The notes under the pieces are model-generated. The model was not told where the DNA came from and searched no databases. It worked only from the letters and a program-made list of their open reading frames with translations. Position numbers and translations under genes: made by a program. This document shows, one piece after another, positions 6,692-25,463 of a stretch of 64,000 bases of DNA. Source of the DNA: Trinickia dinghuensis (lineage in GTDB: Bacteria; Pseudomonadota; Gammaproteobacteria; Burkholderiales; Burkholderiaceae). Within the stretch, counting starts at the first letter, position 1, and each line of letters begins with the position of its first letter. The stretch covers positions 186,001 to 250,000 of the forward strand of contig NZ_QRGA01000001.1 in the NCBI RefSeq assembly GCF_003367175.1. The letters run 5' to 3'.

Positions 6692-7225
6692 TCAAACGGG
6701 CGGCCGATGCCGCTCGATCAGCGCTCTCAAGATATTTTTCAGGCTGTCGATCTCGCGCGCATCGAACGGCGCAAGGATCGCCCGCTCGTGCTCCTCGGCC
6801 TGCGCGATCAATCCGGTTACGAGGCCTCGCCCCTTGCGCGTCGCCTTCACCTGCGTGTAGCGCCGATCGTCCGCGCTCGTCGCGCGCTCCACGAATCCTT
6901 GCGCTTCGAGCCGCACCAGCAGCCGGGTCACCGTCGGCTGCTTGCTGACGGTCATTTGCGCGAGCGCCGAAATCGTCACCGGGCCGTTGCTGGCCAGCGT
7001 CGACAGCACGCGCCACTCGAGCACGGAGAGACCGTGCTGCTCGACGATTTGATGAAACTCCGTCGACACCAAATGCCACGCCTGCCCCAACAGCGCCGGC
7101 AAGTAGTTGTCGACGAACGCCTTCGTTTTAGTCATTCCCGCCACCGCTCCTTCGTCTTCCGGGCACAGCGGGAATTCTACCGTTCCCGTCTCGTCCGGCG
7201 GCGGCTCGGCGGCGTGGTCCGACAT
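6692..7225 (-). CDS. MarR-family transcriptional regulator
   Basis: 177 residues. The winged-helix core is evident: LSVLEWRVLSTLASNGPVTI, then ALAQMTVSKQPTVTRLLVRLE, then RRYTQVKATRKGRGLV, the beta-wing. It is the last gene of the long catabolic operon that starts at 17943, beginning 2 bases after the maleate isomerase stop codon. MarR proteins usually repress the operon that encodes them and are released by an aromatic acid or acyl-CoA ligand. A perfect AT-rich palindrome 80 bases upstream of the first gene of the operon (18023-18036) is a good candidate operator. Confidence 0.9.
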   Translation of the reverse strand: MSDHAAEPPPDETGTVEFPLCPEDEGAVAGMTKTKAFVDNYLPALLGQAWHLVSTEFHQIVEQHGLSVLEWRVLSTLASNGPVTISALAQMTVSKQPTVTRLLVRLEAQGFVERATSADDRRYTQVKATRKGRGLVTGLIAQAEEHERAILAPFDAREIDSLKNILRALIERHRPPV

Positions 7226-7227
7226 CG

Positions 7228-7986
7228 TTAGTATCGCCCCGACAATAGCGCGCCGAAACCGGGCACTCGCGTATCGAGGCCGAGGCGGCGAAGCATCATG
7301 TAGGTGGTCGCAACCGATGAGGAAAGAACGGGCAATCCGATGCGATCTTCGATCGGCTGGATCGACGCGAGCGACGGCATTTGCACACAGGCGGAGGCCA
7401 CGACCGCATCGACACCGGCGGTGTTCAGCCGCTTCGTGATCTCGATCGGTGCGCGCGAATCCTGACGCCCGACTTCCAGGTTGTCCGGGATTTCAAGCGA
7501 AATGCTGTCGACAACTTCGATGCCCTCATGCTCGATATAGTCGATGACAAGTTGCGTCAACGGCTTCATATAGGGCGTAAGGATCGACACCCTCTTGGCA
7601 CCGATCGCACGCAATCCGTCAACCAGCGCACCTGCGCTCGTCACGACCGGGGCAGGCGCGCCGTTCTCTCGCGTGCGGCCATGCAAGCGTTCCTCCGACA
7701 CACAGTGGTATCCGCGCCCCATGCTCATGATGGCGACGAGGCATGCATAGCCGAGTACGTCGACGCGCGCGTCGGACAGTTCAAGCGCGCAGCGATCGCT
7801 GTCGGCGTCCATCGCGGCCAGCTCTTCCTTGGTCACATGCTTCATCCGCATGCGGCTCGAATGAAACGTGAAGCGTTCCGGCGACAACGCCTCGCGCGCA
7901 CGCAGGATGGCGGGAATTTCGGTTTCCATCGTCGTGTTCGAAGAAGGAACGATTTGACCGATACGATAGGTGCGTGCGTCGCTCAC
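7228..7986 (-). CDS. Maleate cis-trans isomerase
   Basis: 252 residues from a GTG start (VSDARTYRIGQIV). The frame stays open far upstream, but the GTG overlaps the preceding stop as GTGA, which indicates translational coupling. IGQIVPSSNTTMETEIP is the maleate isomerase signature. The two catalytic cysteines of the Asp/Glu racemase fold are C82 (LGYACLVAIM) and C200 (ASACVQMPS). The enzyme converts maleate to fumarate without a cofactor. Its presence downstream of a gentisate-type dioxygenase and an FAH hydrolase implies that ring cleavage ends in maleate, not in fumarylpyruvate as in the isomerase-dependent gentisate route. Confidence 0.9.
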   Translation of the reverse strand: MSDARTYRIGQIVPSSNTTMETEIPAILRAREALSPERFTFHSSRMRMKHVTKEELAAMDADSDRCALELSDARVDVLGYACLVAIMSMGRGYHCVSEERLHGRTRENGAPAPVVTSAGALVDGLRAIGAKRVSILTPYMKPLTQLVIDYIEHEGIEVVDSISLEIPDNLEVGRQDSRAPIEITKRLNTAGVDAVVASACVQMPSLASIQPIEDRIGLPVLSSSVATTYMMLRRLGLDTRVPGFGALLSGRY

Positions 7987-9014
7987 GACTGCGTCTCCTG
8001 AAGGGTTTCGAAAGACGGCTCCTGCGGAGCCTCGGATATGCCGGCTCCGATCGGATCGTCGAAGCGGGCGGGTTGAAGCGGGCGGCGATTGACGCGCAGG
8101 TCGAATACGTCGAACCGGTTGTAATGGCCCGTGATGTCGTGCATCTGGCGCGGCTGAATGCAACGCCCGAGATCGATATCCGCGTAGACGATGCCCTCCT
8201 CGTCGATCAGCGGGCTTCCGATCACTCGTCCGTCGGGGCCGAGCACGCCGGAAAAGGCACTGTTGCGGCGGGCCAAGGTCTCCCGCGCTTGCGGGTGCGA
8301 TGCGGCCATCGCCTCGATGATCTCTTCCGAGACCGTCGAGCACGACACGATCGTGAACACCTTGCCTTCGAAGCTATGCGCCGCCGAGCGGACCTTGATC
8401 GCTTCGGCCATGTCGTAGTCGGGCGGCGCGACGGGCAGCGAGATGTAGCTCGCAACATGAACGAGTTCGCCTTGCGCAAGCAACGCGAAACGCGCGAGCG
8501 TATTGGTGTTCTCGCCGCAAGCGAGCGCGCCGAGCGGCCCGATACTCGTTTCATGGACGCGCAGGGCCGATGCATCGCCCGGTGCCCACGTCAACTTCTC
8601 GGCCCACGTCGGCACGAGCTTGCGATGGCGGCCGAGGATCCGGCCGTCGTCGGCGATCGTTACGATCGTGTTGTAGATCGTACCGATGCCATGCCGGCTC
8701 CGTTCGTTCACCCCGATGACGACGTTGATCCGATGACGTGCGGCGGCCTGCGCGATCTTCGCGATTTCCGGCCCGGGCAGCTCGATCGCCGAGCGCACCA
8801 GCCTCTCGAACCACGGACTGCCTTCGACCGGGTTCATGATCCAACTCCAATACGGGTACCCGGCGACGAACACCTCCGGAAACGCCACCAGTTGGGCGCC
8901 GCTTTCGGCGGCCTCTTCGATGAGGCGGCAGACCTTGTCGACAGTCGCGTCCGTCTGCAGGAACACCGGCGCGGCTTGCACCGCCGCGGCCTTGAAGCGG
9001 GGAAGTTCAAGCAT
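7983..9014 (-). CDS. Nitrilase-superfamily carbon-nitrogen hydrolase (proposed maleamate amidohydrolase)
   Basis: 343 residues. The Glu-Lys-Cys triad is visible: E47 in FPEVFVAGYPYW, K132 in GRHRKLVPTWAEKLTW and C166 in LACGENTNTLARF. The residue after the catalytic Cys is Gly, whereas many true nitrilases have Trp there. Annotation by similarity would be aliphatic nitrilase or cyanide hydratase. Wedged between an FAH-family hydrolase and maleate isomerase, an amide-hydrolysing role (maleamate to maleate plus ammonia) is more sensible in this pathway; that is inference. A strong ribosome site, GGAGGAGATAAACG, precedes the ATG. Confidence 0.8.
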   Translation of the reverse strand: MLELPRFKAAAVQAAPVFLQTDATVDKVCRLIEEAAESGAQLVAFPEVFVAGYPYWSWIMNPVEGSPWFERLVRSAIELPGPEIAKIAQAAARHRINVVIGVNERSRHGIGTIYNTIVTIADDGRILGRHRKLVPTWAEKLTWAPGDASALRVHETSIGPLGALACGENTNTLARFALLAQGELVHVASYISLPVAPPDYDMAEAIKVRSAAHSFEGKVFTIVSCSTVSEEIIEAMAASHPQARETLARRNSAFSGVLGPDGRVIGSPLIDEEGIVYADIDLGRCIQPRQMHDITGHYNRFDVFDLRVNRRPLQPARFDDPIGAGISEAPQEPSFETLQETQS

Positions 9015-9065
9015 CGTTTATCTCCTCCGTTACACGTTTTTCAGCACGCGTTGCACGCATGTGAG

Positions 9066-10004
9066 TCACTCGCTGCGCGCGCGAGCAACGGGCCCTACCG
9101 CAACGACGGGATGTCGCAGTTCGCCGATCTTCTCGAGCCGCGCTTCGATCACGTCGCCCGGCCAGACCCATTCCTGCGGATTGCGTCCCGCGCCTACGCC
9201 CTCGGGCGTGCCCGTCGCGATGATGTCGCCCGGCTCCAGCGTGATGCCCGCACTGATATCCGCGATCAGTGCCGGCACCTTGAACAACATGTAGCGCGTG
9301 TTCGAATCCTGTTTGGTTACGCCGTTGACCTTCAAGCTCAGATCGAGCGCATGCGGATCCGGGATCTCGTCGGCGGTGACGATCACGGGGCCGAACGGCG
9401 CATAGGTGTCTTGCCCCTTCGAGTAGATCCATTGACCCGCTCGGCGGCAGTCGCGCGCGCTCATGTCGATCAGCAGGCTGTAGCCGAACACGTAACGGAG
9501 CGCGTCCGCTTCGCTGACGCGCCTCGCGCGCGTGCCCACGATCACCGCCAGCTCCACCTCCCAATCGAGCTGCTTCGTGATCGCCTCGTTGTGCTCGATC
9601 GCATCGCCAGGGCCGATCACGGTGGTCGGCGGCTTGCTGAAAATCACCGGCTGCTTCGGCAGCTCCTTCGACGTGTCGAGCGTGCGGCTCGACTCAGCCA
9701 CGTGTTCGACGTAATTGAGGCCGATCCCGAAAATGTTCTTGCGCGGGCGCGGAATCGGCGCAAGCAGCTTGACGTTGGGAAGCGGCACGGCCGTGCCGAG
9801 CGGCCAGTTGCTCGCATGCTCGCCGAGCAGCGCTGTCGTCGCCGCGACGGCGTGCGGACCGAGATCGATGAAGTCGAGCATGTTTTCCGGCAACGCATGG
9901 CCGACGTGCGCGCCGAACGATGCGAGATCGACGACCATGTCGTCGACGATCGCCCCGAGACGGGCGGCCGATGTCGGATTGGCACGGTAAGTAACGAGTT
10001 TCAT
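9066..10004 (-). CDS. Fumarylacetoacetate-hydrolase family protein (acylpyruvate hydrolase)
   Basis: 312 residues with an N-terminal FAH_N-like part and a full C-terminal FAH barrel from NIFGIGLNYVEHVAES. The metal triad is E149 and E151 (DWEVELAVIVG) with D180 (LLIDMSARD); the Lys of SKGQDTYAPFGP and the GTPEGVG loop are also present. Enzymes of this group hydrolyse fumaryl-, maleyl- or acylpyruvates to pyruvate plus an acid. Directly downstream of the dioxygenase gene (72-base gap) and with no maleylpyruvate isomerase anywhere in the window, it probably acts directly on the cis ring-cleavage product (maleylpyruvate or maleamylpyruvate). Confidence 0.88.
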   Translation of the reverse strand: MKLVTYRANPTSAARLGAIVDDMVVDLASFGAHVGHALPENMLDFIDLGPHAVAATTALLGEHASNWPLGTAVPLPNVKLLAPIPRPRKNIFGIGLNYVEHVAESSRTLDTSKELPKQPVIFSKPPTTVIGPGDAIEHNEAITKQLDWEVELAVIVGTRARRVSEADALRYVFGYSLLIDMSARDCRRAGQWIYSKGQDTYAPFGPVIVTADEIPDPHALDLSLKVNGVTKQDSNTRYMLFKVPALIADISAGITLEPGDIIATGTPEGVGAGRNPQEWVWPGDVIEARLEKIGELRHPVVAVGPVARARSE

Positions 10005-10076
10005 GTTGCGGTTTCCAGATCCAGAAGATATTGAGTAGGAACGTCCGGTAGGTGCGGTAAGTCCGATGCCGATCGC

Positions 10077-11201
10077 TCACGCGACCGATTGATGGCCGCC
10101 GTTTTCGGCCAGCGCTTCCTCGCGATAGAGACCAAGCTTCTCCATCACGGGCAGATCGCTGAAGCAGAACAAGCAGGCGTCCTCGCTGGCGCTGCCGTTG
10201 ACGTGCTCGTGCCAGGCCCACGACGGCACGCAGAAGATGTCGCGCTCGCGCCAATCGAACCGTTGACCGTCCACGATCGAATAGCCACTGCCTTTCGCGA
10301 CTTGATAGAGAAAACTGCCGGTGTGGCGATGGGCCTTACCGGCGAAGCCGGGCCGAAGCAACTGCATGCTCGCGCCCATCGTCGCCATGACGTGTCCGCC
10401 CGACACCGGATTCGTGTAGTGCATCAGCGCATCGTCGAACGGGCTGCCTTCGCTCGCCTTCGCATAGCGCTGCAGCGCCTCGTACGTCGGTGCCCACTGA
10501 TACTTGAAGAGCGGCGAGTAAGGCTTCGACCAGCCCTGCTGCTGCGGGCGGAGTGCCGGCGCGCCCCAGAGGGCGACCGCATCGTCGACCGGGTAGCCGA
10601 CAGCCTGATTCAGATCGGGATGCACGGCATAGAATCCGGCCTCCAGCGCATTGACGAGCGGAATGTCGAGACCGTCCTGCCAGATGCACGGCAGACCGTC
10701 CTGCTCGACGCCGTGTTCATGCCATGTACCGTTGGGCGTCAGCACGAAGTCGTTCGCGCCGAGCGTCATCTTGTGGCCGTCTACGATCGTGTAGGCGCCC
10801 CGGCCTTCCATGATGAAACGCAGCGCCGACGACGAGTGCGCATGCGCGGAAGCGGCTTCCCCGGGATACATCACTTGCAGGCCCGAGTAGAGCCAGCCCA
10901 CGGCGGCCGACACGTCGCGCCGGCCCGGGTTGTCGAGGTAGACGACGCGTCGCCCGGCCTTCTCCGGTGTCACAAGTTCCACCGAACGCAGCACATGCGC
11001 TCGCAAGTCGCGGTAGCGCCAGAGCACCGGCACCGATGCCGATTTCGGCTGCCACGGCTCGATCTTGTTGGCGACCGTCCACAGCGCGCCTGTCTTCATG
11101 CCGGCCAACTGCTCGTAATACGCAACGAGTTCGGGCGTGTCCTCGACGTCGGCGCGTCCGGCCGTATGCTCCCGATACTGGTCGTATGCGGTCGTTGTCA
11201 T
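10077..11201 (-). CDS. Gentisate 1,2-dioxygenase-type bicupin ring-cleavage dioxygenase
   Basis: 374 residues, two cupin domains. The N-terminal cupin carries the iron ligands H120 and H122 (AHAHSSSALRFIMEG) and a later His in the WHEHG motif (161-163). The C-terminal cupin has RHTGSFLYQ and WAWHEH. This is the family of gentisate, salicylate and 1-hydroxy-2-naphthoate dioxygenases, which open the ring between the carboxyl-bearing carbon and its OH- or NH2-bearing neighbour. Given the upstream CoA-dependent hydroxylase and thioesterase, the substrate is either gentisate or 5-hydroxyanthranilate; the sequence alone does not decide. CAGGAGATACCGCG precedes the ATG. Confidence 0.88.
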   Translation of the reverse strand: MTTTAYDQYREHTAGRADVEDTPELVAYYEQLAGMKTGALWTVANKIEPWQPKSASVPVLWRYRDLRAHVLRSVELVTPEKAGRRVVYLDNPGRRDVSAAVGWLYSGLQVMYPGEAASAHAHSSSALRFIMEGRGAYTIVDGHKMTLGANDFVLTPNGTWHEHGVEQDGLPCIWQDGLDIPLVNALEAGFYAVHPDLNQAVGYPVDDAVALWGAPALRPQQQGWSKPYSPLFKYQWAPTYEALQRYAKASEGSPFDDALMHYTNPVSGGHVMATMGASMQLLRPGFAGKAHRHTGSFLYQVAKGSGYSIVDGQRFDWRERDIFCVPSWAWHEHVNGSASEDACLFCFSDLPVMEKLGLYREEALAENGGHQSVA

Positions 11202-11253: not shown

Positions 11254-13581
11254 TCACGCCCGATTGCGCGCGAAGCCGCGCTCGATCTGGTCCTTGGCCA
11301 TCAGATAAGCGGGCGGCCATTCGACATCGCTCCAGCCCTGCTTTGCGCACTCGTGCAGCAGCCACGCCGGATTGGCCATATACGGGCGCGACAATGCGCA
11401 CAAGTCGGCCCGTCCCGATGCAACGATCCCGTTGACCTGATCGGCCTCGGTGATCGCGCCGACCGCTATCGTCGGCACGCCCGCTTCGTTGCGGATGCGG
11501 TCCGCCATCGGCGTCTGGTACATGCGTCCGTAGATGGGTTTCTGGTCGGGCGTGACTTCACCGGACGAGACATCGATCAAGTCGGCCCCGGCAAGATGCA
11601 GACGCTTTGCGATTTCGACCGCTTCGTCGACCGTCGTGCCCCCCTGCGCCCAGTCCGTGCTCGAAATGCGCACCGAGATCGGTAGATGCGCGGGCCATGC
11701 CTCGCGCACGACGGCCAACACCTCCAACGGGAATCGCAAGCGGCCGTCGAGCGAGCCACCGTATTCATCGTCGCGTCGGTTAGTCAACGGGGAGATGAAG
11801 CTCGACAGCAAGCAGCCATGCGCGGCCTGCAGTTCGATCCAATCGAAGCCGGCCGCCGCTGCGCGCCGCGCCGCATCCGCGAACTGCATCCGAATGCGTG
11901 CGAGATCCTCACGGCTCGCTTCCCGCGGAACCTGCGATACGCCCGGCAGGTATGGCGTCGGGCTTGCCGATACGAGCGGCCAGTTGCCCTCGACGAGCGG
12001 ATGATCGGGGCACTCCCAACCCAGCTGGGTAGAACCGCGACGGCCCGCGTGATTCAATTGCACGCCGATGCGCGCGCCGCTGTTTGCGTGGACGAAATCG
12101 GTGACGCGCCGCCAAGCCTGCGCCTGTTCGTCGTTCCACAAGCCGGGGCATGCCGGCGTTATCCGTCCGTCGGCCGACACGGCCGTTGCTTCAGTCAGCA
12201 GCAATCCCGCGCCGCCTACCGCCCGGCTCCCCAAATGAACGAGATGGAACGGGCTGGGCACGCCTTCTCGGCTCGAATACAGCAGCGTGGGCGATACGAC
12301 AACGCGATTCTTCAACGTCACGCCGCGCACCGTATAAGGCGTGAGCAGCGGCGGGCGAATCGCCTCGTTGCTTTCCTCCTCAACGCCCGCACGCTGCGCA
12401 AGCCAGCGTTCGTAGCCCGCCAGCCATTGCGAATCGCGCAATCGGAGGTTTTCGTGGGAGATACGCTGCGAGCGGGTCAGCAGCGAATAGGCGAACTGTT
12501 CGGGCTCTAGCGCCGAGTAGCGCGCGACGTTCTCGAACCACTCCGTCGAATTGCGGGCGGCGTTCTGGATCTTCAGCACCTCGACGCTGCGAACCTCTTC
12601 GTAATGCGCCAGCCCTTCGCGAAGATCGCCCGCCCTCGCCTTCAGCGAGTTGGTCAGCTCGATGGCATCTTCGAGCGCGAGCTTCGTGCCCGATCCGATC
12701 GAGAAGTGGGCGGTATGCGCGGCATCGCCCATCAACACGACGGGCACGTCGCGCCCCGTCTCGCCTTCGGGCTTCGTCCAGTGAACCCACTTTCCGCAAA
12801 TCACACGCGGGAAGCGAATCCAGATTGCCGATCCGCGCAGATGCGTGGCATTCGAAATAAGCTTCTCGCCTTCCAGCCAGGGGGCAAACACCCGCTCGCA
12901 AAAGGCGACGCCTTCCTCTTGAGACATGGCATCGATTCCGGCGGCACGCCACGCTTCGTCCGTCGTCTCGACGATGAACGTGGAGCGGCCGTCCTCGAAG
13001 CGATACGCATGCGCCTGAAACCAGCCGTACTCCGTCTGCACGAAAATGAACGTGAAGGCATCGAAGATCTTGTTCGTCCCGAGCCAGACGAAGCGGCAGT
13101 TCCGCTGATCGATGTCGGGACGGAATACGTTCTCGTACCGCGTGCGCGTCGCGCTGTTGATCCCGTCCGATGCGATGACGAGATCGGCGTCGTACTCGCG
13201 GGCTATGGCCTGGTCATCCTTGATTTCGGTTTCGAACACCAACCGCACGCCAACTTCCTCGCATCGCGCCTGCAGGATGTTCAACAGTTTCTTGCGACCG
13301 ATTCCGATGAATCCGTGCCCGCCGCTGCGGATCATGCGATCCTTGAAGTGGATGTCGATGTCATCCCACCGGCTGAACTCGTCCGCGATCTGCTTCGCCG
13401 AAACCGGATCGGCTTCGCGAAGGTTGTCCAGCGTCGCATCCGAAAACACCACGCCCCAGCCAAACGTATCGTACGGACGATTCCGCTCGATAACGATCAC
13501 CTCATTGTCCGGATCCTGCAATTTCATTAGGAGTCCAAAATAAAGCCCGGACGGGCCGCCCCCTATGCAAACGATTCTCAC
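11254..13581 (-). CDS. Anthraniloyl-CoA / salicylyl-CoA monooxygenase, two-domain flavoprotein
   Basis: 775 residues from a GTG start with AAAGGAAATTATC upstream; longer in-frame starts inside the thioesterase gene are unlikely. The N-terminal half (to about residue 400) is a class A flavin monooxygenase: IVCIGGGPSG dinucleotide fold, ADLVIASDGINSATR, and VVLMGDAAHTAHFSIGSG. The C-terminal half is an old-yellow-enzyme barrel: TPYTVRGVTLKNRVVVSPTL, GVQLNHAGRRGS, ELQAAHGCLLSSFISPLTNRR. This fusion is the architecture of 2-aminobenzoyl-CoA monooxygenase/reductase and of the bifunctional salicylyl-CoA 5-hydroxylases. It 5-hydroxylates the CoA thioester; the OYE half may also reduce the ring. It sits between the thioesterase and the dioxygenase genes. 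Confidence 0.9.
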   Translation of the reverse strand: MRIVCIGGGPSGLYFGLLMKLQDPDNEVIVIERNRPYDTFGWGVVFSDATLDNLREADPVSAKQIADEFSRWDDIDIHFKDRMIRSGGHGFIGIGRKKLLNILQARCEEVGVRLVFETEIKDDQAIAREYDADLVIASDGINSATRTRYENVFRPDIDQRNCRFVWLGTNKIFDAFTFIFVQTEYGWFQAHAYRFEDGRSTFIVETTDEAWRAAGIDAMSQEEGVAFCERVFAPWLEGEKLISNATHLRGSAIWIRFPRVICGKWVHWTKPEGETGRDVPVVLMGDAAHTAHFSIGSGTKLALEDAIELTNSLKARAGDLREGLAHYEEVRSVEVLKIQNAARNSTEWFENVARYSALEPEQFAYSLLTRSQRISHENLRLRDSQWLAGYERWLAQRAGVEEESNEAIRPPLLTPYTVRGVTLKNRVVVSPTLLYSSREGVPSPFHLVHLGSRAVGGAGLLLTEATAVSADGRITPACPGLWNDEQAQAWRRVTDFVHANSGARIGVQLNHAGRRGSTQLGWECPDHPLVEGNWPLVSASPTPYLPGVSQVPREASREDLARIRMQFADAARRAAAAGFDWIELQAAHGCLLSSFISPLTNRRDDEYGGSLDGRLRFPLEVLAVVREAWPAHLPISVRISSTDWAQGGTTVDEAVEIAKRLHLAGADLIDVSSGEVTPDQKPIYGRMYQTPMADRIRNEAGVPTIAVGAITEADQVNGIVASGRADLCALSRPYMANPAWLLHECAKQGWSDVEWPPAYLMAKDQIERGFARNRA

Positions 13582-13592: not shown

Positions 13593-14018
13593 TTATTCGT
13601 TGATGGATTCTAGAGTCAGCGCCTCGCGCAGCATCGCGGGAATGTCGATCGCTTGATGCGTGTCCAGCGATGTCGACACCACCACCTGCGTCACGCTCAT
13701 CCGAACCTCTCCGTCGCCGCCCATGCAGGACAGGGAGAGCGTCAGCGACTTCCCGCCAAGACGAATCACTTCGAGACTGAGTTCGACGTCGTCGCCCATG
13801 CGGCTGATCGAACGGAAGTCGGCCTCCAGACGAACGGTGGGCAAGCCGAACCGGTGCTTGCCGATGTACCCGGCGAATCCCCCCGGAAGCAGACCGTCGA
13901 TCCAGGCTTCCATGAGGTTGTTGAACATCACGAAGTACTGTGGATAGAACACGATGCCGGCCGGATCGCATTCGGCGAAGCGAATTCGGTGTCGTTGCGT
14001 CAGCTTGCGTGGATTCAT
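13593..14018 (-). CDS. 4-Hydroxybenzoyl-CoA thioesterase-family (hotdog) acyl-CoA thioesterase
   Basis: 141 residues, normal for the family. The catalytic motif is RIRFAECDPAGIVFYPQYF with Asp18, followed by the helix MFNNLMEAWID. It hydrolyses an aromatic acyl-CoA. Its ATG overlaps the stop codon of the iorB-like gene as ATGA (14015-14018), so the two are translationally coupled. The long in-frame upstream extension lies wholly inside iorB and is not used. In this operon it would release 5-hydroxyanthranilate (or gentisate) from its CoA ester after hydroxylation, feeding the dioxygenase. Confidence 0.9.
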   Translation of the reverse strand: MNPRKLTQRHRIRFAECDPAGIVFYPQYFVMFNNLMEAWIDGLLPGGFAGYIGKHRFGLPTVRLEADFRSISRMGDDVELSLEVIRLGGKSLTLSLSCMGGDGEVRMSVTQVVVSTSLDTHQAIDIPAMLREALTLESINE

Positions 14019-18307: not shown

Positions 18308-19324
18308 ATGTTGCACACCGCCACCTTCCCGTCCACGGGCGAGCCCGGCAAATCGCTCGAACGAGGCCAGAGCGGCCCCGGGCAGTTGCTGTTCGCATCG
18401 AACGACGTCGATGAAGTCCGGTCGATGGTCGGCCGCGTGATGAAACCGCATAGCCTAAAAATTACCGGCGGCACGGAGCGTTTGGACGCGCGAATGCATT
18501 TCATGGCGCTGGGCGATGTCTCGCTGAGCCGGCTTCAATACGGCTCTTCCGTCGAGATCAGCCCCGGCCCGCTGGAGGACTTCTTTCTGGTTCAAATGCC
18601 GCTCGCGGGCAGCGCCATCATCGAATGCGGCGCGCAGCGGATCGAATCCTCCCCCGCGCTCGCGTCGATTCTGAGCCCCGACGACGACACCTGCATGCAA
18701 TGGGCCGCGAACAACGACTCGTTGATGGTGCGCATTTCCCGGTCTCTGATCGAGCGGGCGCTAGTGGGCCAGCTCAGCCATCCGCTGGATCGTCCCTTGC
18801 GTTTCGAGCTCGGGTTTCGGTGGCGGGAAAGCCCGCTTTGGCAGTGTCTGTTGAATTACATGATCGAATGCTCGGCGCAATGTGCCGATTTGACCCAGCA
18901 CAAACTGGTCGTTGCCCAGATCGAGCAACTCGTCGCCTCGACGCTGCTCGCCGCGCAGCGGCACAGCTACAGCGACGATCCGCCCGCGCGCCGCGGCACC
19001 ATCCTGCCGCGCCATATCCGGCGCGCGAAGGACTATCTCCGGGCCCACGCTCACGAACCCGTTTCGGCCGAGCAGCTTGCGCAGGCGGCCGGCGTCAGCA
19101 TGCGCAGCCTCTATGCGGGATTCAAGGAATATCTCGGCGTCAGCCCGATGCAGTATCTGCGAGATCTGCGCATGGAGTGCGCGCGGACCGAATTGATGGG
19201 CGGCGAGGCTTGCAACGTGTCGGGCGTCGCGCTGAGGTGGGGTTTCGCGCATTTGGGCCGTTTCAGCAACGACTACAAACTTCGCTACGGCGAAACCCCG
19301 AGCCAAACGCTGCGCCGCGGATAG
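18308..19324 (+). CDS. AraC-family regulator with AraC-binding-like N-terminal domain
   Basis: 338 residues. The N-terminal about 200 residues are the AraC-binding-like domain seen in regulators of aromatic acid and amine catabolism (VGRVMKPHSLKITGG, then LSRLQYGSSVEISPGPLEDFFLVQMPL). The C-terminal double helix-turn-helix is complete: VSAEQLAQAAGVSMRSLYAGFKEYLGVSPMQYLRDLRM and VSGVALRWGFAHLGRFSNDYKLRYGETPSQTL. It is divergent from the iorA-like operon and convergent with the isatin hydrolase gene, so it probably activates one or both in response to indole, isatin or a derived acid. AAAGGTATTAGCC precedes the ATG. Confidence 0.92.
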   Translation: MLHTATFPSTGEPGKSLERGQSGPGQLLFASNDVDEVRSMVGRVMKPHSLKITGGTERLDARMHFMALGDVSLSRLQYGSSVEISPGPLEDFFLVQMPLAGSAIIECGAQRIESSPALASILSPDDDTCMQWAANNDSLMVRISRSLIERALVGQLSHPLDRPLRFELGFRWRESPLWQCLLNYMIECSAQCADLTQHKLVVAQIEQLVASTLLAAQRHSYSDDPPARRGTILPRHIRRAKDYLRAHAHEPVSAEQLAQAAGVSMRSLYAGFKEYLGVSPMQYLRDLRMECARTELMGGEACNVSGVALRWGFAHLGRFSNDYKLRYGETPSQTLRRG

Positions 19325-19369: not shown

Positions 19370-20164
19370 CTAGTTGCCGATCAGTGCCAGCACGCGCAGC
19401 GGGCTTCCCGATCCCTGTTCGATCTTCAGCGGCGCCGCCACGATAAGTGCGCCACGCGGCGGCAGTTGGTCGAGATTCTTCAGACATTGCAGACCGTATC
19501 GGTTCGAGCCGTGCATGAGCGTGTGGCACGGATAAGGCACGGGCCACGAGTACGACTGCCCCGCATCGGTGTTGATCGTTTCCACGCCGAAACCATGTGC
19601 ATCCCGCTCGCGGATCAGCCATTCGACCGCTTCCTGCGTTGGGCCCGGGGTATGGGCGCCGTCCTCGCGCATGTTGAGGAACGCCGCCGGATCCTCGACG
19701 CGCTTCGACCAGTCGGTCCGTAGCAGCACCCATGAACGCTTCGGAATGAGTCCATTGCGCTGCTCCCATTCTTTTAGAAACTCGACGGTCAGCAGCCAGT
19801 CTTCGTTTTCTCTCACTTGTGCGCTGGCATCGAGCACAACGGCCGGCGCGATAAAGTGCGCCGGCTCGATCGTGTCGACGCTGCCGTTCGGATAATCGCG
19901 ACCGCTCACCCAGTGAACAGGCGCATCGAAATGCGTCCCCGTGTGCTCTCCGCACGAGAAGTTGTTCCAATACCAGCCGGGGCCCGCCTCGTCGTAGTGC
20001 GAGATCCGCTCGATCTTGAAACCTTGGACCTGACCGAACTGAGGCGGCAATTGCAGCGCCGGGAACGACGGCGACAGCGTCTGCGTCAGGTCGACGACAC
20101 GGATCGCGCCGCCCGCCAGTTGTTCGGCCATCGCCTGCAGGGTTTGATGCGACTGAGGAATCAT
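19370..20164 (-). CDS. Isatin hydrolase (cyclase family, metal-dependent)
   Basis: 264 residues, the length of characterised isatin hydrolases. The metal-binding motif HTGTHFDAPVH gives ligands H74, H78 and D80, within one residue of the numbering in known isatin hydrolases. An aromatic-rich stretch GPGWYWNNFSCGEH before the motif resembles the substrate pocket. Kynurenine formamidases share the motif but are shorter and lack this context. The ATG at 20164 has GGAG 8-10 bases upstream; the frame stays open upstream into the flavin reductase gene. It is the last gene of the operon with the indole monooxygenase, converting isatin to isatinate. Confidence 0.88.
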   Translation of the reverse strand: MIPQSHQTLQAMAEQLAGGAIRVVDLTQTLSPSFPALQLPPQFGQVQGFKIERISHYDEAGPGWYWNNFSCGEHTGTHFDAPVHWVSGRDYPNGSVDTIEPAHFIAPAVVLDASAQVRENEDWLLTVEFLKEWEQRNGLIPKRSWVLLRTDWSKRVEDPAAFLNMREDGAHTPGPTQEAVEWLIRERDAHGFGVETINTDAGQSYSWPVPYPCHTLMHGSNRYGLQCLKNLDQLPPRGALIVAAPLKIEQGSGSPLRVLALIGN

Positions 20165-20202: not shown

Positions 20203-20748
20203 TTATAGGGTTGAAGAAAGCGACGTGAACCGCCCGGCATGAAAAACGAGCGGCTCGCCCGCACGGCTTGCCGTCCGCACGACACGGCCGACGAACAGAA
20301 GATGATCGCCCGTATCGCGGCAATGGTCGTGCTCGCATACCAGCGTCGCAAGCGCTTCCTCGATCGCCGGAACGCCTTCCGGTACCGCGTGCCATGCCAC
20401 TTCGGCGAATTTGTCGGGAACAGCTGCGCTGGCGAAGCGGCGTGCAATCGCCTCATGGCCGCTCGACAAAATATTGATCGCGAAGTGCGTGCAGTCTCGG
20501 AACACCTCCAGGCTCGGCGAGTGGTTGACGAGACTCCAGAGCACCAATGGCGGATCCAGCGACAGCGACGCGAACGAATTGATCGTCAGCCCGACCGGAC
20601 GGCCATCGGGTGCGCGCGTCGTGACGACCGCAACGCCCGTCGGATAGGCACCGAGCAGCTTTCGCAGGGTGGCCGGCTGAAGATCCACACTGCCCCAGGA
20701 GGCCTGTTCGGCCGGGCTCACGTCCGGCTCAGCGATGCATTGCGACAT
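20203..20748 (-). CDS. iifD: Flavin reductase for the indole/styrene-type monooxygenase
   Basis: 181 residues of the flavin-reductase-like (split-barrel FMN-binding) family: LRKLLGAYPTGVAVVTTRAPDGRPVGLTINSFASLSLDPPLVLW is the diagnostic N-terminal block (quoted in pieces: GAYPTGVAVVT, GLTINSFASLSLDPPLV) and FAINILSSGHEAIARRFAS follows. It supplies reduced FAD/FMN to the two-component monooxygenase whose gene ends 11 bases upstream. AAGGAGTG lies 7 bases before the ATG at 20748. The symbol follows the indole iif operon of Acinetobacter by position and function and is tentative. Confidence 0.88.
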   Translation of the reverse strand: MSQCIAEPDVSPAEQASWGSVDLQPATLRKLLGAYPTGVAVVTTRAPDGRPVGLTINSFASLSLDPPLVLWSLVNHSPSLEVFRDCTHFAINILSSGHEAIARRFASAAVPDKFAEVAWHAVPEGVPAIEEALATLVCEHDHCRDTGDHLLFVGRVVRTASRAGEPLVFHAGRFTSLSSTL

Positions 20749-20759: not shown

Positions 20760-22010
20760 TTACGCAGCCGCTGAAACGGAAACGACTTGATGGCTGGATA
20801 TCAAGCGCTCGCATTCGACTTGATCGGCCCACCACGGGAAATAACTTGGCGGATGATTGAAGCCATTGGCGACCACGCCGGCGAGCGAAGGCAGATTGGC
20901 CGCGGCGCCGAGCAACTGCAGCACGTGCGGCGGCGGCGGCGTCAGCAGCGAATTAGTCCACTGCACGACCCAGCGCGCGTAGTCCCAGAACTGTTCGAAC
21001 GTGTGCTCCATCCAGCCGCGCGTATAAGGCTGTTCGCCATGGGCAAGAATCGCGTCGAGATAGACCTTGCAGGCCTTCGTCGCGTTATTCGCGCCCTGCC
21101 CCGTGATGGGATCGTTCGTGACGACCGCATCGCCCAGCCCGAACACGAGCTTGCCCGACGGCAAGGTCATCACCGGCTTGCGCACGGTCGGTGCAAACGC
21201 GCCGGCGAGAATACCGTTGTCGTCGGTCAGTTCGGCGCGGCGCGCGCGGTCCGCTTCCCAAGGCAGGTACGTTTCGAGAAAGCGCTTGCTCGCGGCAAGA
21301 TGCTCTTGCGGCGTGCGGATATCGCGCCAGAAATCGAGCGGGCCGCCCGGCACGCCTTCGAACACCATGATGTCGCACGGCCCCGAGAGCGTCAGCGCGG
21401 GAAACACGAAGTACTCGCCCACACCGGGAATCAGATTGAACGCCACACGCGAATACTCGGGCGTTTTCTCCAAGCCGTGCACGTAGGTCAATGCCAGCGC
21501 GCGCTGCGGCTTATCGAACGGCGAGCGGGCGGCGTCGCGTTCGAACAGCCGAACGACTTCCCCTTTGCCCGCGGCGAGAAGCACGAGATCGTGGCTATCG
21601 GCCAGTGCTTCGAGTTCCGCGACGCCGGCATCCTGGATCAGTACCCGGCCACCGCGCGCTTCGACTTGCTCGAGCCACACCGGCATCTTCACGCGCTGAT
21701 CCACGGATTGCGCAGGGCGATCGAGCCGCGCGCTCCAATCGATCAGCTTTGCTCCTTTCGACTCGGGATGGGGGACGGCGAAGCCGATCCCTTCGACGGG
21801 CGGACAGGCGGCCTCCCATTGATTCAAGCCCAGATCGCGTTCGATCTGCAGCGAAGGATCGAACATGCACTGACTCGACATGACCTTGCCGCGATGAATG
21901 TCGTCCGGCGTGCGATTGGTCACCACCGTGACCTCATAGCCCTTGCTCAGCAGTCCTAACGCAAGCGGCAATCCCGCCTGGCCTCCACCTACGATTGCGA
22001 TTCGACGCAT
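20760..22010 (-). CDS. iifC: Styrene/indole monooxygenase oxygenase component (StyA-type)
   Basis: 416 residues, essentially the length of StyA. FAD fold: RRIAIVGGGQAGLPLALGLL at the N-terminus; KVMSSQCMFDPSLQIERDLGLNQWE and the second FAD motif FGLGDAVVTNDPITGQGANNA are typical of the two-component group E flavoprotein monooxygenases. These use reduced FAD from a separate reductase to epoxidise styrene or oxygenate indole. Context (SDR, flavin reductase, isatin hydrolase) points to indole. AAGGAGA precedes the ATG at 22010; earlier in-frame starts fall within the SDR gene. The symbol is assigned by analogy with the Acinetobacter iif operon. Confidence 0.9.
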   Translation of the reverse strand: MRRIAIVGGGQAGLPLALGLLSKGYEVTVVTNRTPDDIHRGKVMSSQCMFDPSLQIERDLGLNQWEAACPPVEGIGFAVPHPESKGAKLIDWSARLDRPAQSVDQRVKMPVWLEQVEARGGRVLIQDAGVAELEALADSHDLVLLAAGKGEVVRLFERDAARSPFDKPQRALALTYVHGLEKTPEYSRVAFNLIPGVGEYFVFPALTLSGPCDIMVFEGVPGGPLDFWRDIRTPQEHLAASKRFLETYLPWEADRARRAELTDDNGILAGAFAPTVRKPVMTLPSGKLVFGLGDAVVTNDPITGQGANNATKACKVYLDAILAHGEQPYTRGWMEHTFEQFWDYARWVVQWTNSLLTPPPPHVLQLLGAAANLPSLAGVVANGFNHPPSYFPWWADQVECERLISSHQVVSVSAAA

Positions 22011-22056: not shown

Positions 22057-22845
22057 TTACTCGGCGAGCCGGGGAATGGCAGGCTGGGCCTGCTCCGGTC
22101 CCATGACCGAATAGCCGCCGTCGACGGCATAATCGGCGCCGGTCACGAACGATGCGTGCCCCGACAGCAGGAATGCGACGACGTCGGCCACCTCCGACGG
22201 ATTCGCCACGCGGCCGAGCAAGTGGTAATCGGCGGCCACGCGATCGGTTTTCGCGCGATCGCCATGCGTGAGTTCGTCCATGACGCGCGACCACGTCCAC
22301 CCCGGCGACACCGAGTTGACGCGAATGCCGTCGGCGGCGAAATCCATCGCCATGTTGCGCGTGAGCTGCACGAGCGCCGCCTTCGATACCGGGTACAGCC
22401 AACGTCCCGTTTGCGCGACCTTCGAGGAGATGCTCGTGAAATTGACGATCGCCCCGCCGCCGGCCTTGACCATGTAGGGATGGACGGCCCGGGCCGCCAT
22501 CACGGCGCTGACCACATTGACGTCGAGTGCCGACAGCCAATCACGCCGGCCGGAGCGTGCACCATCGTCGAGATAGGTCGCGGCCAAATTCACCAGAAAA
22601 TCGACCCGCCCGTAATGCGCGGCGACTTCGGCAATACCGGATTCCAATTGCTCGTCGTTGAGAATATCGATGGGCCAAAAACGCGTATGCACGGGATCGG
22701 CCGATGCGACCCGTTCGCCACCGGCGGCATCGATGTCGAAGACAGCCACTTTGACGCCGTAGTTTCGCAGCGCTTCGACCACCGCTGCGCCGATGATCGT
22801 CGCACCGCCTGTCACGATGGCAACCTTGCCTTCAAGCTCTTTCAT
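22057..22845 (-). CDS. iifB: Short-chain dehydrogenase, indole-2,3-dihydrodiol dehydrogenase-like
   Basis: 262 residues, classical SDR. Nucleotide motif TGGATIIG (12-19), NLAA at 85-88, catalytic Ser in FTSISS (about 136-140), and Y150/K154 in YPVSK; the C-terminal GADYAVDGGYSVMG is the usual SDR end. It is the first gene of the oxygenation operon. In the Acinetobacter iif system the SDR oxidises the indole dihydrodiol to 3-hydroxyindolin-2-one. Here, with isatin hydrolase as partner, oxidation onward to isatin is implied. No counterpart of IifA, the cofactor-free oxygenase, is seen nearby. Confidence 0.87.
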   Translation of the reverse strand: MKELEGKVAIVTGGATIIGAAVVEALRNYGVKVAVFDIDAAGGERVASADPVHTRFWPIDILNDEQLESGIAEVAAHYGRVDFLVNLAATYLDDGARSGRRDWLSALDVNVVSAVMAARAVHPYMVKAGGGAIVNFTSISSKVAQTGRWLYPVSKAALVQLTRNMAMDFAADGIRVNSVSPGWTWSRVMDELTHGDRAKTDRVAADYHLLGRVANPSEVADVVAFLLSGHASFVTGADYAVDGGYSVMGPEQAQPAIPRLAE

Positions 22846-23003: not shown

Positions 23004-23031
23004 TATCCGCATCGTGCAGCGACTATCCGCA
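23004..23031 (-). promoter_or_regulatory. Candidate AraC-type direct repeat upstream of the indole operon
   Basis: On the minus strand, TGCGGATA occurs twice (23031-23024 and 23011-23004), exactly 20 bases apart and in the operon's direction, about 160-185 bases upstream of the SDR start. An eight-base exact direct repeat at two helical turns is a typical AraC-family half-site pair. Confidence 0.55.
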
Positions 23032-23064
23032 CACTGCCGGTTTTGAAGCGAACCGGAAATCAGA

Positions 23065-24168
23065 TCAGAACAGGTGCCGCAAGCCCACCCGCAAGGCCAT
23101 CTGATTGCGGCCGTCGGACGGTCCGAACAGGACGATTTGCGCTTGTGCGTTGTTGCCGCTCGCACGCTGGTACGTGACGCTCGTGTAGACATCGGTCCGC
23201 TTGGAGAGCGAATAGTCGAGCGTCATGTTGACCTGGTGGGCCTTGTTTCCACTCAGCACCGCGTTGCCGTCCATGAACTGGTATGCGGCGGCAAGACGCA
23301 GGAACGGGCTGAACGGGTACATGCCGCCCACCTCGTACACGCCGACGCTCGCACCCGTGAACGTATTCTTCGTGTTGGTATAGAGCGCGTCGAGATAGGC
23401 CGGTCCGACGAAGACACCACCGCCCACGCCGAAGTTGCGAATCCCGGAGTTGCCGTTGTTGATGCCCGGGTAGCGTACGTAGGTGTATGCGGCGTCGAGG
23501 TTGAATTGCCGGTTGCCGTAGTCGAGCGCAAAGCTTTGTGCGCTGTCCTGAGCCAACGCGCCTGCGACGCCGCCGAGCCCGTACATGGCGCCGAAGCTGA
23601 ACCCGTTGAAATCGGGGCTCTCGTATTTGACCGAGTTCGTGATGCGTTCACCGGCTACTCGATCGAAATCGAAAGCGCCGCTAGGCTGGTTGGGAACACC
23701 CAATCCGTTGAACGGCCCTTGGCGCAGATTCTGGAGAGAGATAAACGGAAATTCCGGACCGTAGCGCTTCACGGCCAGCGACGTGAACATGAAGTCGTAC
23801 TGGTTGCCCGCGGTCAGGCTGCCCCACTTGTTGTCCTTCAATCCCACGTAGGATTGGCGGCCGAAGAAATTGCCGATCGACGCCCCGGTGCCCTCGTTGA
23901 ACTGCCCTTCGAGAACGAAGATCGCAGCAAGCCCGCCGCCCAGGTCCTCCTTGCCGCGGAAGCCGAACAAGTTCGGCGCCAGCACGCCGGTCCCGAGCGA
24001 GACTTGATGGTTGCCGCCCACGTTGGTGACGAAGTCGATCCCCGAATCGATCAACCCGTACATCGTGACGCTGCTCTGGGCCTGCGCAGCAGCCGCATAC
24101 CCAACACCCGACATGGCAACCGCAATGCTAAGCGCCGCCGACTTGCCCTTCACATACTTCCGCTTCAT
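23065..24168 (-). CDS. Outer-membrane porin (Gram-negative general porin family)
   Basis: 367 residues. A signal peptide is clear (MKRKYVKGKSAALSIAVAM, ending AAAQAQ), then SSVTMYGLIDSGIDFVTN, the mature start shared by Burkholderia porins. EDLGGGLAAIFVLEGQFN and GRQSYVGLKDNKWGSLTAGNQYD are family blocks, and the chain ends in Phe (RVGLRHLF) as needed for BAM assembly. AGGAGAGGGG precedes the ATG at 24168. Sitting between the indole operon and an AraC regulator, with a degenerate copy of the same repeat in its promoter, it may admit indole derivatives or aromatic acids. Confidence 0.92.
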   Translation of the reverse strand: MKRKYVKGKSAALSIAVAMSGVGYAAAAQAQSSVTMYGLIDSGIDFVTNVGGNHQVSLGTGVLAPNLFGFRGKEDLGGGLAAIFVLEGQFNEGTGASIGNFFGRQSYVGLKDNKWGSLTAGNQYDFMFTSLAVKRYGPEFPFISLQNLRQGPFNGLGVPNQPSGAFDFDRVAGERITNSVKYESPDFNGFSFGAMYGLGGVAGALAQDSAQSFALDYGNRQFNLDAAYTYVRYPGINNGNSGIRNFGVGGGVFVGPAYLDALYTNTKNTFTGASVGVYEVGGMYPFSPFLRLAAAYQFMDGNAVLSGNKAHQVNMTLDYSLSKRTDVYTSVTYQRASGNNAQAQIVLFGPSDGRNQMALRVGLRHLF

Positions 24169-24284
24169 CCCCTCTCTCCTCATGCTGACCATATTGAACT
24201 TTGGAACCTGCGCGCCTGCGCTCGATATCGCTATCGGATATCGACGGGCACGTGAGGATCATCGGAATTCAAAAGTCGGCCAGC

Positions 24285-24310
24285 TATCCGATTCCCGCAG
24301 CGTTCGTCCG
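24285..24310 (-). promoter_or_regulatory. Degenerate copy of the AraC-type direct repeat upstream of the porin
   Basis: On the minus strand CGGACG (24310-24305) and CGGATA (24290-24285) are 20 bases apart, with CGCTGC between them at the same offset as in the copy upstream of the SDR gene. It lies 117-142 bases upstream of the porin ATG. Confidence 0.4.
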
Positions 24311-24440
24311 AAAGAGGAAAGAGAAGCGTGTTGCGGTTCGGCGAGCGGCGCGCATGTCAGCGCACGCTCGTTGCCCGAGTGCGGAATTTCTGCGAGGTTG
24401 TCTTCGAGGTCGCGGCGCGGGTGCGCGCCGAGCCTGATGA

Positions 24441-25463
24441 CTAGCTGCGTGGCGCGTTCAGCGTGTCTTGAGGGCGAACGCCGAAGCGCCGCCGATAGTG
24501 GGCCGAGAAGTGCCCGTAATGCGAGAACCCCCAGCGCATCGCGACGTCCGTGAGTCGTACCGATGCCGGATCGCCCGACTTCAGTTCGGCATGGACGGCT
24601 TTCAAACGAAGTTCGCGTAGATAGGACATCGGCGAGCGATCGTAGGTCTGGCGAAACGCATGGAACAGCGCACGCGAACTCACGCCAACGGTGCGCGCGA
24701 TTTCATCGACCGACGTGATATCGGCAAGATGCTCGCGCATGTAGTCTTCCGCCCGTTTGACGTACGCGGGCCTAACCGTCCTGCGCCCGGGCATACCATT
24801 CAAGTACTCCGAACAGTTGTTCGCCTGCGCCAGGATCAGCGTGTCGATCAATAGCCGTTCACAGCGCTCGGCGTAGGACGGCATGCCGAGCAAATCCGGA
24901 AACGCCACGCTCCCTTCGAGCACATAGGCGAGCGCACCGCACCACGCGCGGCCGGCCGGGCCGTTTAAATCGAGCGCCGGATTGAAACGCAGGCCTCGTT
25001 CGGGAAGCAAATCGATATGTTCGATGCAGGCGCGATGCAATGCCTCTTGATCGATGCGAACGATGACTTGGCTAAGATCGGCCGAGAATTGGAAGCGCGT
25101 GGCTTCCTGCGGGGATATCACCGCCGCCACATCGTTGCTGCCCGACACCAGCTGCTTTCCGCAGCTATAGCGTGCCGCGCCGCGAACCGGCATCTGGACG
25201 AGCGTAAAGCCGTTCAACTCGCCCGGATCGACGCTGACTTCCGCGCCATATTGGAGGTAGAAAATTTGCAAGCCGCCGATCTTCAGCGAACGCAAGGTCG
25301 CATCGAGCTCACCGGCTCGCCCGGCGATGGACATGCTGTGGGGTTTGAACGCACGCCCCACGGTGTCGATGACGTGCCCCGTATCGACCTTGCCTTCGAA
25401 CTCGACGCTGAAATGACGAAACGCGCCCGGCGTGCCGTCGTAGAACCGAGAAAGATTGTCCAT
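24441..25463 (-). CDS. AraC-family regulator, paralogue of the one at 18308-19324
   Basis: 340 residues with the same plan as the other AraC gene: VGRAFKPHSMSIAG and LQIFYLQYGAEVSVDPGELNGFTLVQMPVRG in the N-terminal sensing domain, then the double helix-turn-helix ITSVDEIARTVGVSSRALFHAFRQ and LTDVAMRWGFSHYGHFSAHYRRRFGVRP. The matching N-terminal blocks suggest related ligands. It is upstream of the porin on the same strand with a 272-base gap carrying a candidate repeat, so it likely controls the porin and/or the indole operon. Confidence 0.92.
   Translation of the reverse strand: MDNLSRFYDGTPGAFRHFSVEFEGKVDTGHVIDTVGRAFKPHSMSIAGRAGELDATLRSLKIGGLQIFYLQYGAEVSVDPGELNGFTLVQMPVRGAARYSCGKQLVSGSNDVAAVISPQEATRFQFSADLSQVIVRIDQEALHRACIEHIDLLPERGLRFNPALDLNGPAGRAWCGALAYVLEGSVAFPDLLGMPSYAERCERLLIDTLILAQANNCSEYLNGMPGRRTVRPAYVKRAEDYMREHLADITSVDEIARTVGVSSRALFHAFRQTYDRSPMSYLRELRLKAVHAELKSGDPASVRLTDVAMRWGFSHYGHFSAHYRRRFGVRPQDTLNAPRS

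Follow-up and report, generated by a model that had tools for sequence, protein, structure and literature searches.

We analyzed a gene cluster from Trinickia dinghuensis that appears to encode a complete aerobic pathway for indole catabolism running through isatin, a reading to which we assign a probability of roughly two in three on the basis of sequence comparisons. The cluster lies in a 64,000-nucleotide stretch of the 7.37 Mb genome (C1:186001-250000; the window). All of the genes named in an initial annotation of this DNA were found, and family profile scans backed the assignments of all the locus genes at the family level. The upstream run (minus strand, 22845 down to 19370) encodes a short-chain dehydrogenase (SDR), a StyA-type monooxygenase, a flavin reductase and isatin hydrolase. 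The downstream run (minus strand, 17943 down to 6692) encodes IorA, IorB, a thioesterase, a salicylyl/anthraniloyl-CoA monooxygenase (ACM), a bicupin dioxygenase, a FAH hydrolase, a carbon-nitrogen hydrolase, a maleate-isomerase-like protein and a MarR regulator. An AraC regulator, the only one of the annotated genes on the plus strand, separates the two runs. Three details of the annotation needed correction: the gene at 6692 encodes the MarR regulator and not an enzyme; the gene labeled amidohydrolase is present, but its product is a carbon-nitrogen hydrolase (PF00795); and the interval was too short, as genes for an FAD oxidoreductase, a VOC protein and an NCS1 transporter lie upstream at 25566-29197. 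The first of these, we think, belongs to the system. The features are as follows.

6692-7225, minus strand: MarR-family regulator (HpaR-type MarR match of 72 bits, below the cut-off; relatives adjoin the cluster).
7228-7986, minus strand, GTG start: maleate cis-trans isomerase, predicted to convert maleate to fumarate (PDB 4fq7, E 8.2e-104; Cys82 and Cys200).
7983-9014, minus strand: nitrilase-superfamily hydrolase, predicted maleamate amidohydrolase (PF00795, 141.6 bits; candidate Glu, Lys and Cys in FPE45, HRK130 and CGEN166).
9066-10004, minus strand: FAH-family hydrolase, predicted to convert maleamylpyruvate to pyruvate and maleamate (PF01557, 236 bits).
10077-11201, minus strand: gentisate-type bicupin dioxygenase, predicted 5-hydroxyanthranilate dioxygenase (PDB 3bu7, E 8e-172; TIGR02272, 322 bits, cut-off 442).
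11254-13581, minus strand, GTG start: ACM, predicted anthraniloyl-CoA 5-monooxygenase, with an altered old-yellow-enzyme half (NF006101, 1308 bits, cut-off 1078).
13593-14018, minus strand: 4HBT acyl-CoA thioesterase (PF13279, 45.5 bits).
14015-15571, minus strand: IorB-like subunit with DUF6537 (NF006179, 708 bits, cut-off 348; PF01558, PF20169).
15661-17943, minus strand: IorA-like subunit, a thiamine pyrophosphate (TPP) enzyme with an Fe-S tail, predicted isatinate:acceptor oxidoreductase, CoA-acylating (TIGR03336, 285 bits, cut-off 651; GDG...DN at 526).
18308-19324, plus strand: AraC-family regulator, AndR-like, divergent from IorA (NF041686, 197 bits, cut-off 350).
19370-20164, minus strand: isatin hydrolase (PDB 5nmp, E 3.7e-148; metal and Trp residues kept).
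20203-20748 (refined start), minus strand: flavin reductase of the indole monooxygenase (StyB/HpaC-type matches, all below cut-off).
20760-22010, minus strand: StyA-type indole monooxygenase (PF17885, 152 bits; PDB 7z4x, E 6.1e-187).
22057-22845, minus strand: SDR, IifB/GS-B-like (NF006121, 421 bits, cut-off 294; an operon partner in relatives).
23065-24192, minus strand: porin (weak PorB match; relatives of 71-80% in L060, L102 and L103).
24441-25463, minus strand: AraC-family regulator (NF041686, 171 bits, below cut-off).
25566-27158, minus strand: FAD oxidoreductase of the carotenoid-desaturase type, GS-O-like, candidate dioxindole-to-isatin oxidase (absent from the initial annotation).
27155-27715, minus strand: VOC-family protein (kept in L104 and L108, among the best 80 of 579 FAD oxidoreductase relatives).
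27758-29197, minus strand: NCS1-type transporter, possibly for substrate uptake (adjoins isatin hydrolase in L103; also in the stretches L104, L108, L118 and L133, among the same best 80 of 579).

The gene order was identical in three other genomes (G506, G316 and G348; G316 has one inserted gene) and was partly kept in Providencia, Vibrio, Pseudomonas gessardii and others among the best 80 of 579 relatives. Because the order recurs in this way, we consider the locus to be more than a chance assembly of genes.

We propose the following route. Indole would be converted to 3-hydroxyindolin-2-one (dioxindole) by the monooxygenase, flavin reductase and SDR, relatives of which have been assayed elsewhere. 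The FAD oxidoreductase at 25566-27158 may convert dioxindole to isatin; this is the weakest step and may also occur spontaneously. Isatin hydrolase, a family assayed elsewhere, would yield isatinate, and IorAB, judged by co-occurrence and family chemistry, would carry out the oxidative decarboxylation of isatinate with CoA to anthraniloyl-CoA. ACM is predicted to hydroxylate anthraniloyl-CoA at C5 and, owing to its altered reductase half, to leave the ring aromatic. For the remaining steps the protein families fit the predicted reactions: the thioesterase would release 5-hydroxyanthranilate, the bicupin dioxygenase would split it between C1 and C2 to give maleamylpyruvate, the FAH hydrolase would produce pyruvate and maleamate, the nitrilase-type amidase would produce maleate and ammonia, and the isomerase would convert maleate to fumarate. 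At the genomic level, co-occurrence and locus order support, with corrections, the indole-to-fumarate route via isatin and anthraniloyl-CoA in the initial annotation; what we would add are the FAD oxidoreductase and the altered ACM, in what is probably a variant of known aromatic catabolism. A broader reading, which we hold tentatively and at a little below even odds, is that isatin-hydrolase-linked IorAB is a new isatinate:acceptor oxidoreductase (CoA-acylating) and a node at which indole and auxin breakdown meet in two or more phyla, that a desaturase-like flavoenzyme makes isatin, that an ACM clade without ring reduction feeds a maleamate route to fumarate, and that isatin is a genuine intermediate rather than a dead end.

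The evidence for the central steps comes from isatin hydrolase and IorAB. Isatin hydrolase keeps the HxG[T/A]HxDxPxH metal motif and the equivalents of Trp59, Trp61 and Trp80, residues described for this enzyme in the available text of PMC6117287, and its closest relatives of known structure are isatin hydrolases. IorAB has the features of the 2-oxoacid:ferredoxin oxidoreductase superfamily: PF02775, PF01558, the GDG...DN motif and seven Cys residues in the tail. IorA had no relative among the sequences of solved structures at E 0.001. In 57 of 61 IorA loci the first Fe-S motif of the tail reads C-T-G-D (C-S-G-D in one, unreadable in three); the Asp presumably stands where a Cys would be expected.

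We searched 299 genomes of the Burkholderiaceae family for IorA (E ≤ 1e-40) and isatin hydrolase (E ≤ 1e-50). Each was present in 30 genomes: 29 had both, one (G458) had only IorA (58-61%), one (G420) had only isatin hydrolase, and 268 had neither. Presence of the two therefore agreed in 297 of the 299 genomes (Fisher p 5e-38, ignoring relatedness), and in 27 of the 29 genomes with both, the genes were on one contig and ≤15.8 kb apart. The succession of isatin hydrolase and IorAB in the initial annotation is supported by this agreement and by whole-genome searches that located both genes outside the fetched stretch in 26 of 27 genomes whose monooxygenase stretch lacked isatin hydrolase, among the best 80 of 579 FAD oxidoreductase relatives. 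Database family names and similarity to TIGR03336 would fit an ordinary indolepyruvate or arylpyruvate ferredoxin oxidoreductase of amino acid breakdown, with isatin hydrolase a chance neighbor. We consider this most improbable: IorA scored far below the cut-off of that equivalog (285 vs 651 bits) and was not found in 269 of the 299 genomes, and its presence matches that of isatin hydrolase. Chance neighborhood was rejected on this co-occurrence.

The IorAB genes of G458 (locus L072) adjoin an apparent alpha-hydroxy-acid oxidase gene, judged by eye, and ABC transporter genes, and their product perhaps uses an arylglyoxylate. In G420 (L103), which has no IorA in the genome, an NCS1 transporter, a porin and an AraC regulator (AraC2) alongside isatin hydrolase resemble those of the window.

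Isatin hydrolase was within the stretch in 48 of 61 IorA loci, including loci from Sulfitobacter (Alphaproteobacteria) and Tsukamurella (Actinomycetota), and ACM in 32 of 61. Stretches of up to 20 kb around IorA fell into several types. The indole operon and the complete downstream run occur together in the window, G506, G316 and G348. In G535 the indole operon and the IorAB-thioesterase genes are on two contigs, and no ACM run was seen. A monooxygenase of 56-58% marks another arrangement, found in G492, G503, G533 and G558 (in the last, as pieces on two contigs). The downstream run with isatin hydrolase was present in G397, G510 and G522, where the monooxygenase was not found. Five loci (L046, L047, L051, L066 and L068) have IorAB, thioesterase, MarR and isatin hydrolase but lack ACM within the stretch fetched, and might be an isatin-to-anthranilate module. 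In another 12, IorAB and isatin hydrolase were found and both thioesterase and ACM were missing from the stretch. The downstream partners of IorAB are either the ring-cleavage set or an intact anthraniloyl-CoA monooxygenase/reductase (ACMR) with enoyl-CoA hydratase and acyl-CoA dehydrogenase (ECH/ACAD) genes (L074, L140, L178, L186, L191 and L195; IorB was not seen in L195). L140, L178 and L195 have no ligase-like gene in the stretch, and L074 has one AMP-binding gene and no isatin hydrolase seen.

The superfamily of IorAB converts a 2-oxoacid and CoA to an acyl-CoA. Isatinate (2-aminophenylglyoxylate) is an arylglyoxylate and, from co-occurrence and family chemistry, the predicted substrate of IorAB. 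Conversion of isatinate and CoA to anthraniloyl-CoA is the reaction that fits, because the contexts of IorAB have isatinate in common as the compound supplied and anthraniloyl-CoA as the compound used next.

The initial annotation stated that there is no CoA ligase gene in the window, and for the benzoate-CoA-ligase family we found this to be correct: none of the 21 TIGR02262 matches in the genome lies there, and a benzoate-type ligase within the window was rejected on this count. Near ACM genes generally (≤12 kb), a ligase-like gene was present in 3 of 33 rows with IorAB compared to 9 of 18 without (Fisher p 0.0018), counting several short or early-ending stretches as they stand, the plasmid loci L067 and L078 twice, and the far end of the G533 locus (L101; main part L062) as without IorAB. 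Among rows with ≥5 kb on both sides the counts were 3 of 14 and 8 of 11 (p 0.017). Neighbor calls used identity thresholds of our choosing. L186 and L191 carry both IorAB and a ligase-like gene.

These counts bear on a different fate for the product of IorAB, in which the thioesterase hydrolyzes it to free anthranilate, which is then re-activated by the ligase and second ACM encoded elsewhere in the genome or oxidized otherwise, the local ACM branch being secondary. Such a route would agree with the five fetched loci that lack ACM and with the ligase-like gene beside a second ACM cluster in the host. We think it unlikely: ligase-like genes are rare near IorAB-linked ACM genes, the thioesterase gene adjoins ACM within one gene run, and the order from thioesterase through ACM, dioxygenase, FAH and amidase to isomerase is kept across ten fetched ACM loci of the Burkholderiaceae family, one of them cut by a contig end after FAH. 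The proposed bypass of free anthranilate and of a ligase is supported, at the genomic level, for IorAB-linked ACM clusters. Because the genome has a second ACM cluster elsewhere, with a ligase-like gene, the host probably still handles free anthranilate, and because of the five loci, where the thioesterase may release anthranilate, the bypass need not be general.

The second line of evidence concerns ACM, which consists of a hydroxylase half and an old-yellow-enzyme half. In the latter, the motif H-x-x-H-G-Y reads Q-A-A-H-G-C in the window. In the old-yellow-enzyme fold, substrate binding and protonation depend on these His and Tyr residues. All 22 dioxygenase-linked rows (21 distinct, as L067 and L078 are apparently one plasmid) have Gln for the first His and Thr in SPT, and all 15 ECH/ACAD-linked rows have His and Met. 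The other 13 of the 50 rows, without a deciding neighbor, comprise seven with His and Met, four with Gln and Thr, and two with Gln and Met. Among the 28 Gln rows, the Tyr is also lost in six and the second His in three. The Gln rows form a single clade inside the His rows (support 100/98; 27 rows after merging). The simplest reading is that ring reduction was lost once, in what would be a switch from beta-oxidation to ring cleavage. The Azoarcus enzyme yields a non-aromatic product (PMC4539516, available text); because the old-yellow-enzyme half is altered in dioxygenase-linked ACM, we predict the aromatic product 5-hydroxyanthraniloyl-CoA.

A normal anthraniloyl-CoA monooxygenase/reductase feeding beta-oxidation, with the dioxygenase branch serving gentisate or salicylate, would be consistent with NF006101, which places both types of ACM above its cut-off, and with the naming of 3bu7 as a gentisate dioxygenase. 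The altered motif in every dioxygenase-linked row argues otherwise, as does the absence of ECH/ACAD-type neighbors ≤12 kb from the window ACM, and a salicylate or gentisate route would presumably require neither amidase nor IorAB. We judge this possibility very unlikely. The window cluster lacks two features expected of the canonical ACMR pathway: an intact H-x-x-H-G-Y motif and, in the cluster, CoA ligase and ECH/ACAD genes. A class-wide search with NF006101 gave mostly partial matches to the old-yellow-enzyme half, and 12 of 274 genomes passed the cut-off.

If 5-hydroxyanthranilate is cleaved between C1 and C2, its amino group would end up as an amide, which would account for the presence of a carbon-nitrogen hydrolase and a maleate isomerase in the cluster; dioxygenase, FAH hydrolase, amidase and isomerase are the set that such an amide-bearing cleavage product would need. 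The isomerase has full-length homology to solved maleate cis-trans isomerases and two Cys residues, Cys82 and Cys200, which we take to be in the expected place and role. The dioxygenase matched 3bu7 at 575 bits and fell short of the TIGR02272 gentisate 1,2-dioxygenase cut-off. Of these predicted steps, the amidase is the one assigned with least certainty. On a megaplasmid of Ruegeria pomeroyi (L201), a cupin at 9797-10921 matches 3bu7 at 901 bits over 374 residues and is most likely the 3bu7 protein. It adjoins genes for a carbon-nitrogen hydrolase, FAH, an Asp/Glu racemase and IorAB, and because of these neighbors the natural substrate of 3bu7 may be 5-hydroxyanthranilate.

In the indole oxidation half, the monooxygenase, flavin reductase and SDR were found together, as in the iif/ind pathway, and the monooxygenase matches 7z4x, an indole monooxygenase of Variovorax. 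The initial annotation held that IifA is missing, and our comparisons agree. In loci fetched for monooxygenases 41-70% identical to that of the window, the monooxygenase has an IifA-like gene (409 aa) as its neighbor in 12 of 14; of the other two, one contig is cut short and one has the 41% monooxygenase. This query was called IifA-like from its position in iif-type operons and the wording "cofactor-independent oxygenase" for dhoA/iifA in the available text of PMC12538310, and not from a match to published IifA. No IifA-like gene was found in the window or in the isatin-hydrolase-linked operons compared. A location elsewhere in the T. dinghuensis genome was rejected, as only a half-length match was present (residues 8-227 of 409 at 42%).

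The FAD oxidoreductase has a complementary distribution. It was found in 11 of the 299 genomes. Nine genomes have isatin-hydrolase-linked monooxygenase clusters; eight of these are among the 11, and the remaining one, G535, has a fragment of the oxidoreductase. None of the 54 other monooxygenase-bearing genomes has it. In a scan of named genomes limited to the best 80 of 579 relatives, 49 of the loci had the monooxygenase and none of these 49 had an IifA-like gene; across all 80, the only IifA-like matches were two at 25% (L126 and L129). Isatin hydrolase was in the stretch in 22 of the 49, and in 26 of the remaining 27 a search of the whole genome found isatin hydrolase, with IorA in the same 26. 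The single exception was an Acidimicrobiia metagenome bin. The FAD oxidoreductase tracks isatin-type monooxygenase clusters and not IifA-type ones. That it follows isatin-hydrolase-linked operons without IifA is why we propose it as the candidate enzyme for conversion of dioxindole to isatin, the weakest assignment in the pathway. The proposal that IifA is replaced by isatin hydrolase followed by a CoA-dependent step is supported in that isatin hydrolase and IorAB fit it, but isatin hydrolase is not the only gene that changes, since the FAD oxidoreductase tracks the switch. Its Providencia counterpart, GS-O, alone produced no pigment from tryptophan (PMC9871250), and the FAD oxidoreductase may accelerate or safeguard a reaction that is also able to proceed spontaneously.

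Parts of the locus resemble published systems, which we compared using the available text of the papers cited. The GS-A/B/C/D/O/E/R cluster of Providencia rettgeri GS-2 (Li 2023, PMC9871250) shares the SDR, the StyA-type monooxygenase, the flavin reductase, a cyclase-family hydrolase, GS-O and AraC. Among the best 80 of 579 relatives, the Providencia loci have the gene order given by the published numbers, with proteins 59-75% identical to those of the window, and in P. rettgeri L157 (RB151) and L159 the IorA, IorB, thioesterase, ACM and dioxygenase genes follow the upstream half. The available text of that paper lists no gene beyond AraC, takes the hydrolase product to be N-formylanthranilate and proposes a catechol pathway; isatinate and N-formylanthranilate have the same formula, C8H7NO3. 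The iif/ind (dho/ipo) pathway of Acinetobacter, Cupriavidus and Pseudomonas (PMC6221969, PMC12538310) shares the monooxygenase, flavin reductase, SDR and AraC; unlike it, the window has the FAD oxidoreductase, isatin hydrolase and IorAB, and IifA was not found there. In a Cupriavidus strain, a 2-aminobenzoyl-CoA cluster proved essential (Qu 2017, as cited in PMC6221969); it could consist in part of the same genes.

The iad auxin loci of Variovorax and Bradyrhizobium (PMC9613470, PMC12633357) share IorA and IorB homologues (iadA and iadB), a formamidase-annotated iadI that acts around isatin, and MarR regulation. In contrast, the Rieske oxygenase iadCDE was not matched in the window at the neighbor-call thresholds, on which ground we rejected the set as an iad auxin locus, and the published end product of the iad loci is free anthranilate. 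The available main text of the 2025 preprint (PMC12633357) does not name iadA or iadB, and the membership of IorAB in auxin loci rests mainly on those two genes in PMC9613470. A compound with the formula of isatinate accumulated strongly only in strains overexpressing the iadC-K2 fragment (PMC12633357), a build-up also predicted if IadAB is missing. The 2-aminobenzoyl-CoA pathway of Azoarcus evansii (PMC4539516) shares the CoA thioester and an ACMR-family enzyme, but there an ATP-dependent ligase carries out the first step and a non-aromatic product is finally degraded by beta-oxidation, whereas the window cluster has no ligase, an altered reductase half and ring cleavage. The gentisate-type anthranilate route of Nocardia opaca (Cain 1968, cited in PMC4539516) shares the intermediate 5-hydroxyanthranilate; gentisate and maleylpyruvate were reported there, with no genes named in the available text, and amide-bearing intermediates are predicted here.

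Several observations weigh against the pathway as proposed. IorAB occurs without isatin hydrolase in G458, and the Ruegeria stretch, which has IorAB and the ring-cleavage genes, shows neither ACM nor isatin hydrolase. Where IorAB and isatin hydrolase occur but the monooxygenase does not, we found no source of isatin for many of the loci; iadC/D/E-like genes are in 2 of 61 IorA loci (L074, and L178, which also has a monooxygenase). In Variovorax, the iadC-K2 fragment, named without iadA and iadB, restored anthranilate in a locus deletion (PMC12633357), and IorAB-like proteins thus seem not to be required for anthranilate there. The host has a second ACM cluster (C1:612210-620570; L073) with an intact reductase motif, SDR, enoyl-CoA hydratase and acyl-CoA dehydrogenase (named by eye and from relatives), probably an ordinary anthranilate route; its benzoate-CoA-ligase-like gene (C1:619041-620570) scored 356 bits against a cut-off of 375. 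The ACM signature arose once, so that its rows are not independent; the closest solved dioxygenase bears the gentisate name, and the closest solved relatives of the amidase are nitrilases. The FAD oxidoreductase may be dispensable, because it is also present in three of its 11 genomes without a monooxygenase match (G289, G485 and G526; G289 and G526 also lack isatin hydrolase and IorA) and because a four-gene Providencia strain without GS-O was still yellow on tryptophan, the authors holding isatin formation to be spontaneous (PMC9871250).

If true, the conversion of isatinate to anthraniloyl-CoA would be a new enzyme activity. We found no published proposal of the IorAB step in literature searched by title, start of abstract and passages, with subscription papers mostly outside its reach. 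A 2018 review (PMC6221969, available text) left open the role of isatin in indole breakdown and the genes of the gentisate-type branch; the locus supplies named candidate genes for both, and offers a candidate fate for isatinate in indole, and perhaps auxin, breakdown. The ACM signature separates two predicted fates of anthraniloyl-CoA. Judging by the comparison, published work on the Providencia cluster used for Tyrian purple seems to cover its upstream half only.

A few other loci and genes were recorded. On a plasmid of Deinococcus psychrotolerans (L080), an isatin-hydrolase-like gene (49%) lies by genes for a TPP-binding protein and an AMP-binding protein within an ACM cluster, perhaps another way of handling isatinate. 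An Azospirillum locus has IorAB and iad genes; isatin hydrolase was not among the genes of the stretch fetched, the only part of that genome searched. A match on the Variovorax WDL1 plasmid, IorA and a partial IorB between transposase genes, was uninformative. Beside the locus, the window encodes an argininosuccinate-lyase family protein at 3493-5031 on the plus strand (377 bits, cut-off 279.5).

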